Assembly: GCA_947448795.1 (NCBI GenBank)
Contig: CANFOZ010000014.1
Location: 1-46,966, forward strand
Reading direction: 5' to 3'
DNA: 46,966 bases
DNA from: Bacteroidota bacterium
GTDB taxonomy: Bacteria > Bacteroidota > Bacteroidia > AKYH767-A > JAHEYN01
Part shown: positions 16,155 through 28,195 of the stretch, one piece after another
Position numbering within the stretch: the stretch's first letter is position 1
Layout: every line of letters begins with the position of its first letter
Made by a program: the position numbers and the translations under genes
The notes under the pieces: model-generated
What the model saw: only the letters and a program-made list of their open reading frames with translations
Told to the model about the DNA's origin: nothing
The model's database searches: none

Positions 16155-16523
16155 ATGGAATCCACCCGGCAGCAAAAATTTGCAAGACTGATACAGAAAG
16201 AGTTAAGTCAGCTATTTCTTCACGACGGCCCATCCATTTATGGGAAAGCGTTTGTGACCATCACGAATGTAAAAGCCACCCCCGATCTGTCCATTGCACG
16301 CGTTTATCTAAGTATTTTGGCTGTGCCTGATCGCGAGAAGGCGGTGGACGAAATCAACGAGGCAACGCACAAGATTCGCGGTTTGCTCGGTTTACGCATT
16401 AAACAGCAGGTGCGCCACATTCCTCAGCTTGTGTTTTTTCTCGATGATTCCTTGGACTACGCCGAGAAAATTGAGCGCCTGCTTAAAGAAGCGAATGTTG
16501 GCAAGGACACTTCGAATTCCTAA
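16155..16523 (+). CDS. rbfA: 30S ribosome-binding factor A
   Basis: RQQKFARLIQKELSQLF, VTITNVKATPDLSIARVYLSIL, LRIKQQVRHIPQLVFFLDDSLDYAEKIERLL. Confidence 0.92.
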   Translation: MESTRQQKFARLIQKELSQLFLHDGPSIYGKAFVTITNVKATPDLSIARVYLSILAVPDREKAVDEINEATHKIRGLLGLRIKQQVRHIPQLVFFLDDSLDYAEKIERLLKEANVGKDTSNS

Positions 16524-27300: not shown

Positions 27301-27354
27301 GATTATTATGGCGAAAAACATCGATTTAATGGCTTTGTGGAGCTTATCAGGTAG
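21319..27354 (+). CDS. Giant (2011 aa) secreted repeat protein: IgGFc-binding-like N-terminus, PKD domains, many Ig-like/SprB-type repeats, gliding-motility (T9SS type B) C-terminal domain
   Basis: N-terminal NKGTEFWLAFMGHDN; PKD motifs (WYFGDGDTSSLQSPTHTY, RWDFGDGISDSLFSPNHLY); repeated AGNDTTLCLGASATLSVTGGASYAWSPAAGL modules; C-terminal AFIPNIFTPNADGLNELFVI...FNRWGRRM...GWDGKTSTGVEVSPGTYFYTIDALDYYGEKHRFNGFVELIR. Confidence 0.92.
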   Translation: MKSYWIKNIPGILLVLLLVFSGYSSIAQETSNKGTEFWLAFMGHDNTTSTEMSLYITSDVNTTGTVSVPLAGWSTAFTVIANTTTIVAVPNATAYVNSSEAIENKGIRIQSVLPVVAYSHIHFGTRSDASLVLPVPTLGKEYYAMSYTQNPTGPTRNSEFIIAAVEDSTTIEITPKATTTGGHVAGAAFSIQLNQGQVYQVRATADLTGSYIRSISPSTTGCKRIAVFSGNSYAYLGCATASSGDNLYQQLYPKNAWGSNFVTAPFLTRTGDYYRVMAGTDGTVVTFNNSVTWNLNAGQFHDTLSSVSNFFSATHPITLAQYQRSQNCDGVTAGDPSMTILNPVEQTLDTITLYSSPWVNITGEYINVIMKSADTALFRLDGNHTPFTIAPFNSVYSYSRNTVTSGNHTLRADSGFNAIAYGFGSFESYGYSAGANVKSLEQYISLSSNGVGNISSSCVGSQVNFNAVTDYTPNSWLWYFGDGDTSSLQSPTHTYLSTGVFTVSLLTERPVNNSCSAFDSSAVVLTIVPSPIAGFTYNNVCLGDTVFFHDSSTAPTSLVASRLWHFGDGDTSTALNPFHVYTALGSYTATLLIRSAGGCLDSVSHVVQVTSLTAATAGNDTSFCIGGSVNLAASGGTSYLWSPANGLSATNTATPTASASSTTDYHVLITSGGCSKLDTVHVAVNALPTVDAGNNQSICVGGNANLLATGGVSYAWMPGASLNDAFIANPIAAPSVTQTYTVTATDLHGCVNVDSVHVAFFSLPTAGNDTTLCLGASATLSVTGGASYAWSPAAGLSATNIANPSASPASTTTYTVSITDVNACVTNRQVHVAINALPPVAAGSDIAYCIGASDSLHATGAISYLWTPATGLSSVTAANTQVNIAGNQQYILTGVGLNSCVNTDTVMVVVNALPSADAGPSLSICVGASTTLAASGGVTYAWSPATNLSATGIYNPIASPSATQTYSVLVTDVNGCSKTDSLTIAFFPQPTAGNDTTLCLGASATLSVTGGASYAWLPAAGLSATNIANPSASPASTTTYTVSITDVNACVTNRQVHVAINALPPVAAGSDIAYCIGASDSLHATGAISYLWTPALGLGSTTDANILVTTALTQDYILAGTDANACVNTDTVNVQVYALPPANAGLDDSICMGNAAQLVATGGVAYQWSPASPLNASAVANPLATPLDTTTFSVLVTDVHGCQASDSMVVFVHAIPVVNIGQDVWICPGDSIQLSIAGTGSFSWSPAILTSNPTASNVMVSPSDTTDFIVSFTNIHSCVNSDTVQVAVNAAVPVNAGPDQVICFGDTVMLGTAPTAPSGSTFLWNPGLSVNDSLLGNPQVYPTVFTTYVVFVTNDTCHGRDTVIVQVNPLPTPVFAGNDTAVCIGQPVLLGADSVLGHNYSWTDINGVFSSNQATPTVSPSDSTSYLLVQTSIATGCSDKDTIRVAVNPLPAINAGSDTVLCFQQLALLGSPALLGNSYSWTSVPAGFSASLADTLVSPSDSTAFVLLQTIDATGCTARDTMRIAVNPLPTSVAGTDTVICAGISVLLGTDSISGNSYAWSSVPAGFNASTSDSLVTPADSTLFILHQTILATGCYQVDSVKVNVNDRPIIYAGTDTTFCIGGTFTLGSDSTAGIVYGWTSIPSSLATDQATPVIQPAQTTSYYLIGSYPATSCSSLDSIKVTINPLPTVLLSNDTTICAGESVVLNASGGQTYSWLPIVSLSSNTSPSTVASPVASVTYTVTVVDANACISTDSVAFLVHPAAIAAAGPDNVVCPGAQAVLKGSGGVSYAWSPAAGLSSTTSQEVIAGPANITAYELLVTDANGCTDRDTVIVDVENQLQADFTVGPIEGTAPAFIDFTNNSQAAAYYRWDFGDGISDSLFSPNHLYTDSGTYRVVLYAISNNGCRDTAFYEFIHLDQHVYAFIPNIFTPNADGLNELFVINSMGFVSMTGQIFNRWGRRMSTVDFVASGWDGKTSTGVEVSPGTYFYTIDALDYYGEKHRFNGFVELIR
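23608..23924 (+). repeat. Copy 1 of a 317-bp internal near-identical duplication
   Basis: Aligns without gaps to 24286-24602 (offset 678 bp = 226 codons) with about 9 mismatches. Confidence 0.95.
24286..24602 (+). repeat. Copy 2 of the 317-bp internal near-identical duplication
   Basis: See copy 1; only one observed difference changes an amino acid (TCG Ser to TTG Leu). Confidence 0.95.
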
Positions 27355-27361
27355 TTTGTGG
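27354..27361 (+). repeat. 8-bp direct repeat GTTTGTGG, left boundary of the putative cassette
   Basis: GTTTGTGG overlaps the stop codon of the giant protein gene; same 8-mer at 28157-28164. Confidence 0.6.
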
Positions 27362-27415
27362 CTGCGAGTACCCGCATGAGAATTCATTACAATAATTTCT
27401 TAGATTTGCCATGAA

Positions 27416-27859
27416 ATGAAATTTGAAAAATACCAACTCGAATCAGATAGAAAATTACTCCTGCTTGAATTTACAAGTATTGGGCCTAAAGGAAGGATCA
27501 AAAAAGTTGTTCAGTATGCGGAGACAAATTTGAACAACTATTACAACCTTGGATTTGGTGACAAGGACGAAAGGACCGGTGAAATAGACGACATCGTCAT
27601 TACAAATAATGGTGACAGTCAAAAAATATTAGCTACGGTAGCCTCAACTGTGTATGCATTTACAGACAAGTACAAAGACGCGATGATTTATGCGAAAGGC
27701 AGTACCAATGTTCGTACTAGGCTTTATAGAATTGGAATCACAAATGATTTACTTGAAAGCAGGAAGGACTTTCATATCTTTGGACTAATCGACAATCAAT
27801 GGCACGAGTTTCGAAAGCATTCTGAATATGAAGCCTTTTTAATAATCAGAAAAAAATAG
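27416..27859 (+). CDS. DUF6934-like hypothetical protein
   Basis: 147-aa soluble ORF (MKFEKYQLESDRKLLLLEFTSIGPKGRIKKVVQYAETNLNNYYNLGFGDKDERTGEIDD...GDSQKILATVASTVYAFT...); resembles the family as I recall it. AT-richer than its neighbours by eye. Confidence 0.7.
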   Translation: MKFEKYQLESDRKLLLLEFTSIGPKGRIKKVVQYAETNLNNYYNLGFGDKDERTGEIDDIVITNNGDSQKILATVASTVYAFTDKYKDAMIYAKGSTNVRTRLYRIGITNDLLESRKDFHIFGLIDNQWHEFRKHSEYEAFLIIRKK

Positions 27860-27871
27860 TACTTTTTAATT

Positions 27872-28039
27872 ATGACAGTCACAATAAAACAACTCAATAA
27901 ATCAAAGACGCCTATTGTCAAAATCAATAAAGATTTAGACAAGTATGCAAAAAAGATTCTTTTTCCAGAGAAGTTAAAAGAGGCGAATCGTATTCTGAAG
28001 GAAGTCGGGCTACCGAAGCTTAAAGCGCACCACCGCTAA
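27872..28039 (+). CDS. Small (55 aa) basic hypothetical protein paired with the DUF6934-like gene (absent from the ORF track)
   Basis: MTVTIKQLNKSKTPIVKINKDLDKYAKKILFPEKLKEANRILKEVGLPKLKAHHR*; starts 12 bp after the upstream stop, same strand; its stop lies inside the palindrome's left arm. Confidence 0.6.
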   Translation: MTVTIKQLNKSKTPIVKINKDLDKYAKKILFPEKLKEANRILKEVGLPKLKAHHR

Positions 28040-28164
28040 CAGCGCCTTGGCTACAGCGGGGGCTTTCTGCTGTTTGAAAATCACATGAATTGTTTTATAT
28101 TTGTTGAACTATTTAAGAAACACCTCGCCCACCCCGCCGGCGCCAAGCCGCCAAACGTTTGTGG
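28030..28164. repeat. Imperfect long inverted repeat (attC-like) at the 3' end of the putative cassette
   Basis: Left arm 28030-28061 ccaccgctaacagcgccttggctacagcgggg versus reverse complement of 28132-28164 ccacaaacgtttggcggcttggcgccggcgggg; an inner AACAGC/GCTGTT pair at 28038-28043/28069-28074. Confidence 0.65.
28157..28164 (+). repeat. 8-bp direct repeat GTTTGTGG, right boundary of the putative cassette
   Basis: Same 8-mer as 27354-27361. Confidence 0.6.
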
Positions 28165-28195
28165 TATATCAACATTAAAAAGCAGTGATGCTGTC

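Follow-up and report, generated by a model that had tools for sequence, protein, structure and literature searches.

An imperfect palindrome in a Bacteroidota genome is probably the attC-type site of an orphan integron cassette

The window, i.e., the whole 46,966-nt stretch of DNA analyzed here (contig CANFOZ010000014.1 of a Bacteroidota bacterium), carries an imperfect palindrome at 28029-28165 (+ strand). At a probability of roughly 0.88, this palindrome is an attC-type recombination site that belongs to a single orphan cassette from an integron system of Bacteroidota. A divergent attC class was one of the options raised in the first-pass annotation, and it is supported by covarying hairpins at the ends of codirectional cassettes, by arrays, by an integrase and by an attI-like boundary. 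The site family, its arrays, the junction pattern, the platform and the co-occurrence with the integrase are all shown at the sequence level.

The two arms of the palindrome were found exactly where they had first been described, CCACCGCTAACAGCGCCTTGGCTACAGCGGGG at 28030-28061 and CCCCGCCGGCGCCAAGCCGCCAAACGTTTGTGG at 28132-28164. Folding of each strand alone, which had been proposed as a check, gave –25.3 kcal/mol for the bottom strand (z –1.55, 8 of 200 shuffles as good), i.e., modestly above chance, and –17.6 kcal/mol for the top strand (z 0.19), i.e., chance level. Because the one fold was modest and the other at chance, a single sequence cannot carry the claim of a hairpin, and single-sequence folding was dropped as proof, being too weak to decide. 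The palindrome was instead confirmed through its homologues, by near copies and covariation. BLASTN within the own genome, a 2.72-Mb metagenome-assembled genome of 119 contigs (93.7% complete), returned five further stretches related to the window site, and a motif scan located more sites in the same contigs. A covariance model (R1) built from 11 own-genome sites gave 18 sites at E<0.01 in this genome, with arrays in contigs C6 and C18 (motif scan and R1). The window site, itself a member of the R1 training set, scored 83.4 bits (E=2.6e-19 for the genome). Among the 11 sites, 17 of the 25 base pairs showed changes on both sides (0/500 shuffles). In an alignment of 99 sites (A6), 86.7% of cells were paired, vs 61.4% when shuffled and 30-40% when slid, with 571 double-changed cells (0/500 shuffles). 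The related sites share one covarying hairpin; a conserved hairpin and compensatory changes, whose absence had been named beforehand as counting against the site, were both present.

From the 5' end, the family layout comprises a left core ending in TAAC, one unpaired A, an L stem of 10 bp, 4x4 mismatched bases, a distal stem with 6 bp or more and a variable loop; the 3' side ends with five unpaired bases, mostly AAAAC or AAACC, followed by GTT. In the window copy (all on the + strand), the left core R'' TAAC (28037-28040) and the 1-nt 5' spacer A occupy 28037-28041, this A being kept in 98 of the 99 sites. They are followed by the L stem, with its arms GCGCCTTGGC (28042-28051) and GCCAAGCCGC (28142-28151), the mismatch block, with TACA (28052-28055) facing CGGC (28138-28141), and the distal stem, GCGGGG (28056-28061) pairing with CCCCGC (28132-28137). 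The 3' spacer CAAAC (28152-28156) has the length of 5 nt found in 93/99 sites, and the right core R' reads G^TTTGTGG (28157-28164), the crossover mark being taken from the junctions described below. The L stem (helix 2, 90.5% of cells paired) covaries at all 10 pairs of the 99-site alignment, and the distal stem (helix 3, 97.3% of cells paired) is the GCGGGG/CCCCGC block already noticed at first pass, as was the loop of about 70 nt, which corresponds to a variable terminal region of 70 nt (28062-28131). Two other pairings seen at that stage were rejected: CCAC/GTGG, taken as the outermost register, is not conserved among related sites and gives way to TAAC (28037-28040) and GTT (28157-28159), and the inner AACAGC/GCTGTT pair, not conserved either, lies outside the conserved structure, GCTGTT being part of the variable loop.

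At its last position, the mismatch block has a top-strand A·C (a G·T wobble when read on the bottom strand) in 83 of 90 sites, and the bottom strand was predicted to be the more stable one in 75 of the 99 sites. Across these 99 sites, the 10 bp of the L stem showed no conserved extrahelical base or bulge; the mismatch block present instead is symmetric. Therefore, of the two attC features that were to be looked for, the unpaired central spacers are present (1 nt vs 5 nt) and conserved extrahelical bases are not. A poor fit of GTTTGTG to GTTRRRY had been noted at first pass. Compared with the canonical RYYYAAC and GTTRRRY, the family reads NNNYAAC and GTTR with covarying outer bases; the window cores CCGCTAAC and GTTTGTGG deviate, and the R' GTTT of the window copy is unusual in the family. 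The misfit would be explained if the 3' core of this solitary copy derived from the chromosomal target and not from a neighbouring cassette; the outer bases of the window right core are probably of chromosomal origin.

Sites of this family were found in 151 of 297 Bacteroidota genomes, with at most 10 candidates scored per genome under strict filters; the site and profile models being home-built, their E-values are rough. The 70 intervals between neighbouring sites had a median length of 706 bp, and the longest ORF was directed to the downstream site in 64 of 69 intervals, with its stop at a median of 8 nt before the site. Cassettes of the own genome encode a ParE toxin and an HpaII-type methylase/endonuclease pair, while HNH, cupin, cytochrome b561, cation efflux, DUF2130 and NERD proteins and many unknown proteins were found elsewhere. 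In the contig C6 array (L029:1-17100), the ParE-type toxin cassette stands together with a cassette that holds the complete HpaII-type restriction-modification pair. The junctions were compared in 29 neighbouring pairs of sites, treated as independent. The six bases after GTT matched the core of the next site perfectly in 19/29 pairs and the site's own core in 0/29; at a match of at least 5/6, the counts were 23 for the next core and 4 for the own core, and 7% for random cores. Since the bases after GTT match the next core and not the own one, this pattern is what marks the insertion of cassettes as circles at G^TT, which, as judged from the junctions, is the crossover point of the site family.

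Some arrays also contain other elements. In the plasmid of Chryseobacterium sp. SNU WT5 (L215:18000-22700), two array sites have altered left cores, and downstream of them stands a repeat rich in hairpins, its copies being 96% identical, with an IS110 transposase and a group II intron nearby, as known for attC-site parasites. In genome G021, a repeated element with the left end CGTCAGACTGTGCAAAAACC and the right end GGGGTTTAGTGCAACA is located at the cores of many attC-type sites (L115:8375; L116:3592, 16170-16297; L117:1136; L118:7219; L120:6274-6400; L121:6056; L122:7145-7271, 12765; L123:7271). It often adjoins a multicopy tyrosine recombinase of 332-341 aa and looks like a transposable element targeting attC cores.

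The relatives carry a tyrosine recombinase, an attI-like boundary and then the array. A scan of named genomes yielded 80 relatives of the recombinase, the best ones mainly from Bacteroidota, and the site model placed nearly all arrays around them on the integrase strand, downstream. Among the 25 integrase-array pairs listed in the phylum sample, the geometry was fixed in 24, 19 being codirectional with the array downstream and 5 divergent with the array upstream, with 1 exception (the geometry and co-occurrence lists were compiled by hand). The second layout, in which, as in class 1 integrons, transcription of the integrase leads away from the array, was seen in L127, L128, L129, G274, G234, G077, G058 and G046. 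In 19 of 21 platforms, the first cassette, as identified from its own left core, starts downstream of the integrase stop, mostly at a distance of 37-323 bp, vs 0.7% when cores were swapped between platforms; by its position and junction, this boundary would mark an attI-like site. Integrase, attI-like boundary and attC array occur together in relatives and in named isolates such as Flavobacterium aciduliphilum (L143) and Algoriphagus ornithinivorans (L141), and the Chryseobacterium plasmid NZ_CP041688.1 has a platform with six sites. Outside Bacteroidota, relatives of the integrase were met in Spirochaetota, DPANN archaea, Patescibacteria, Bacillota, and Alpha- and Betaproteobacteria (L169, L170, L180, L183, L184, L192, L195, L205, L206, L208), with weak site matches beside L169 and L183.

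A dispersed hairpin that does not recombine, e.g., a transcription terminator, a REP-like element or a regulatory RNA element downstream of genes, would likewise be palindromic and often located just after stop codons, and solitary copies do exist. However, such an element would not account for the swapping of cores between neighbours, the attI-like boundary, the linkage to an integrase in a fixed orientation or the conserved unpaired spacers with AAC/GTT cores. A search of Rfam with the window site gave no family match either, and we regard this explanation as very improbable.

Both its fold and its phylogeny place the integrase nearest to IntI. It matches TIGR02249 in two pieces, profile positions of about 180-238 being skipped, and shares with IntI the C-terminal SPLDxL/SPFDxL motif. 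It does not reach the TIGR02249 cut-off of 265 bits (204.8, 217.0 and 195.3 bits; none over the cut-off in 40 relatives). The best NCBIfam model was NF040815 recomb_XerA_Arch (in the two clearest cases, 220.8-225.5 bits, the cut-off being 220), whose name, 'site-specific tyrosine recombinase/integron integrase', gives no platform, attI or attC sites. An identity as XerC or XerD was rejected, with 168-190 bits vs equivalog cut-offs of 330-335 and a separate branch (support 100). Nearly all of these proteins have 58-59 residues between the catalytic K region and HxxR, vs 100-102 in canonical IntI and 65-68 in Xer, and the part without counterpart falls within residues 180-242 of VchIntIA (2a3v), where about 20 residues are found here. 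According to these alignments, the IntI-specific additional domain of about 41 residues is missing from this integrase. The AlphaFold model (pLDDT 84) had the integron integrase 2a3v as its best structural match in the PDB (E=4e-19, TM 0.74). In a quick tree, these proteins and IntI were set apart from Xer (support 100), canonical IntI forming one clade (99) among lineages lacking the domain. This fits a later gain of the additional domain, in a tree with an insecure root and weak support for many inner branches. A plasmid search with IntI1 for diverse IntI references returned near-identical IntI1 only. Besides, many of the integrases have an N-terminal alpha/beta extension of about 90 residues (L141:9701-9990, residues 1-90), mostly modeled with high confidence.

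In the 297 Bacteroidota genomes, the domain-lacking integrase was found in 94 (A3 profile, E<1e-75) and canonical IntI over the cut-off in 85. Sites were present in 62/69 genomes with the domain-lacking integrase only and in 22/25 with both, vs 12/60 with canonical IntI only and 55/143 with neither (domain-lacking only vs neither, p=2e-13); 67 of the 151 site-bearing genomes had no strong integrase match. The sites therefore track the domain-lacking integrase and not canonical IntI. These numbers bear on another explanation, according to which the palindrome is an ordinary attC site of a canonical integron, whose IntI has the additional domain, missed as existing models under-represent Bacteroidota. 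The G^TT junctions, hairpin polarity and cassette layout are common to both, and canonical IntI does occur in the phylum at the frequency just given. Yet genomes with canonical IntI only carry sites at a rate below that of genomes with neither integrase. Besides, model R2 gave no site (E<=1) in the surroundings of 15 canonical intI genes, a region with a class 1 integron had none at E<=0.1, and canonical IntI was seen in only 1/74 genomes of the window's own class, vs 85/297 phylum-wide. An ordinary canonical attC site is thus improbable, and the attC-type site of a distinct Bacteroidota system remains the preferred reading.

In the window, the site closes a cassette of about 0.8 kb, predicted to be solitary, which contains a DUF6934 gene and a small ORF and is located directly after the TAG stop of a 2011-aa gene and before a convergent response-regulator gene. 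The DUF6934 gene (27416-27859, +, 147 aa) matches Pfam PF22028 at E=6.3e-55. The second ORF (27872-28039, +, 55 aa), whose TAA stop overlaps the left core TAAC, had no family match in profile searches. DUF6934 as a regular cassette gene was rejected, a site being nearby in only 2 of the 10 loci searched, window included. Because GTTTGTGG stands both at 27354-27361, at the stop of the upstream gene, and at 28157-28164, as the right core, the cassette (TTTGTGGC ... G) probably spans 27355-28157 (+ strand), with G^TT taken from the array junctions. At this putative left boundary (27355), the six bases that follow GTT agree with the cassette's own R'' at only 3 positions; placing the boundary exactly by core matching was dropped, no good upstream match being available. 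The expected empty target would be ...CAGGTAGTTTGTGGTATATC..., i.e., ...CAGGTAG|TTTGTGGTATATC. In the data compared, no close relative had the empty site and no usable relative kept synteny.

An integrase of the domain-lacking type is absent from the window's own genome (94% complete, 119 contigs), where only Xer-like matches were obtained and IntI was rejected. This genome thus has sites and arrays and no such integrase, so that the complete platform was not found there and the window copy was considered an orphan cassette. Since the left end fits poorly (3/6) and the data compared hold no relative with an empty site, the mode of insertion of the window copy is a matter of inference, as is its continued mobility. 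In line with the missing integrase, the poor match of the left boundary and the unusual R' GTTT, the window copy might be a dead relic of a lost array rather than one cassette inserted separately outside an array. However, the site is well preserved (83.4 bits) and sits cleanly between two convergent genes with GTTTGTGG on both flanks, so a relic is possible but the less likely of the two.

For catalysis, single-strand folding, strand choice and the arrival of the window copy, we infer the following scheme. Where the system is complete, a tyrosine recombinase of the integron-integrase lineage, without the additional domain, lies beside an attI-like site. This enzyme would probably recognise the bottom strand of attC folded as a hairpin and exchange it, at the step between G and TT, with attI or a second attC. 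Cassettes would leave as circles and, on insertion, each cassette start would be paired with its own left core. The strand would probably be chosen through the fixed A·C/G·T position together with the asymmetry of the spacers (1 nt vs 5 nt), replacing the canonical extrahelical bases. The window cassette itself would probably have been inserted alone at a GTT between the two convergent genes.

Insertion of cassettes at attG was reportedly described by Loot and colleagues in 2024. As in such insertions, or in CALIN and solitary attC sites, the window cassette is away from any integrase and has a GTT target, whereas its site is of a different family. Integron attC sites are bottom-strand hairpins with R and L boxes, UCS, EHB and VTS (PMC2727003). 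The present family resembles them in its AAC/GTT cores, G^TT junction, unpaired spacer, variable loop, top-strand C preceding GTT (a G following AAC on the bottom strand), predicted higher stability of the bottom strand and location at the end of the cassette gene. In contrast, it has no conserved extrahelical bases, was not found near canonical IntI, almost always has spacers of 1 nt and 5 nt of conserved sequence (A and AAAAC or AAACC) and has a fixed A·C/G·T position. The mechanism would thus be integron-like, with two classical features failing at the sequence level, the additional domain of IntI and the extrahelical bases.

In its passages on the subject, a previous study reports incomplete conservation of the insertion among integron-like recombinases, calls the insertion essential for integron function and draws no link between such members and cassette arrays (Smyshlyaev et al., 2021, PMC8138268). 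Following Messier and Roy (2001), as cited in PMC9668308 and PMC2426708, the additional domain is regarded as the mark of integron integrases and as necessary for activity, and survey work has picked intI genes by this domain (PMC2426708). For Bacteroidetes proper, IntegronFinder 2.0 named just one complete integron, that of Salinibacter (PMC9024848), and no Bacteroidota are among the 11 taxon models of attC sites (PMC8352920). In the open PubMed Central literature, the scope of our search, no paper on such sites in Bacteroidetes was found; this Bacteroidota integron kind is apparently undescribed, priority not being established. It is reasonably likely that a second kind of integron exists phylum-wide, with an integrase lineage that never had or lost the additional domain, its own attC class, and strand choice by spacer asymmetry and a fixed wobble, not by extrahelical bases. 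Such a system may stand as an intermediate between Xer recombinases and classical IntI. If about half of the sampled Bacteroidota species carry such sites, they would constitute a large uncounted reservoir of mobile gene cassettes. Domain-lacking integrases would show how recombination of folded strands can proceed without the additional domain and would bear on the origin of integrons from Xer-like enzymes.
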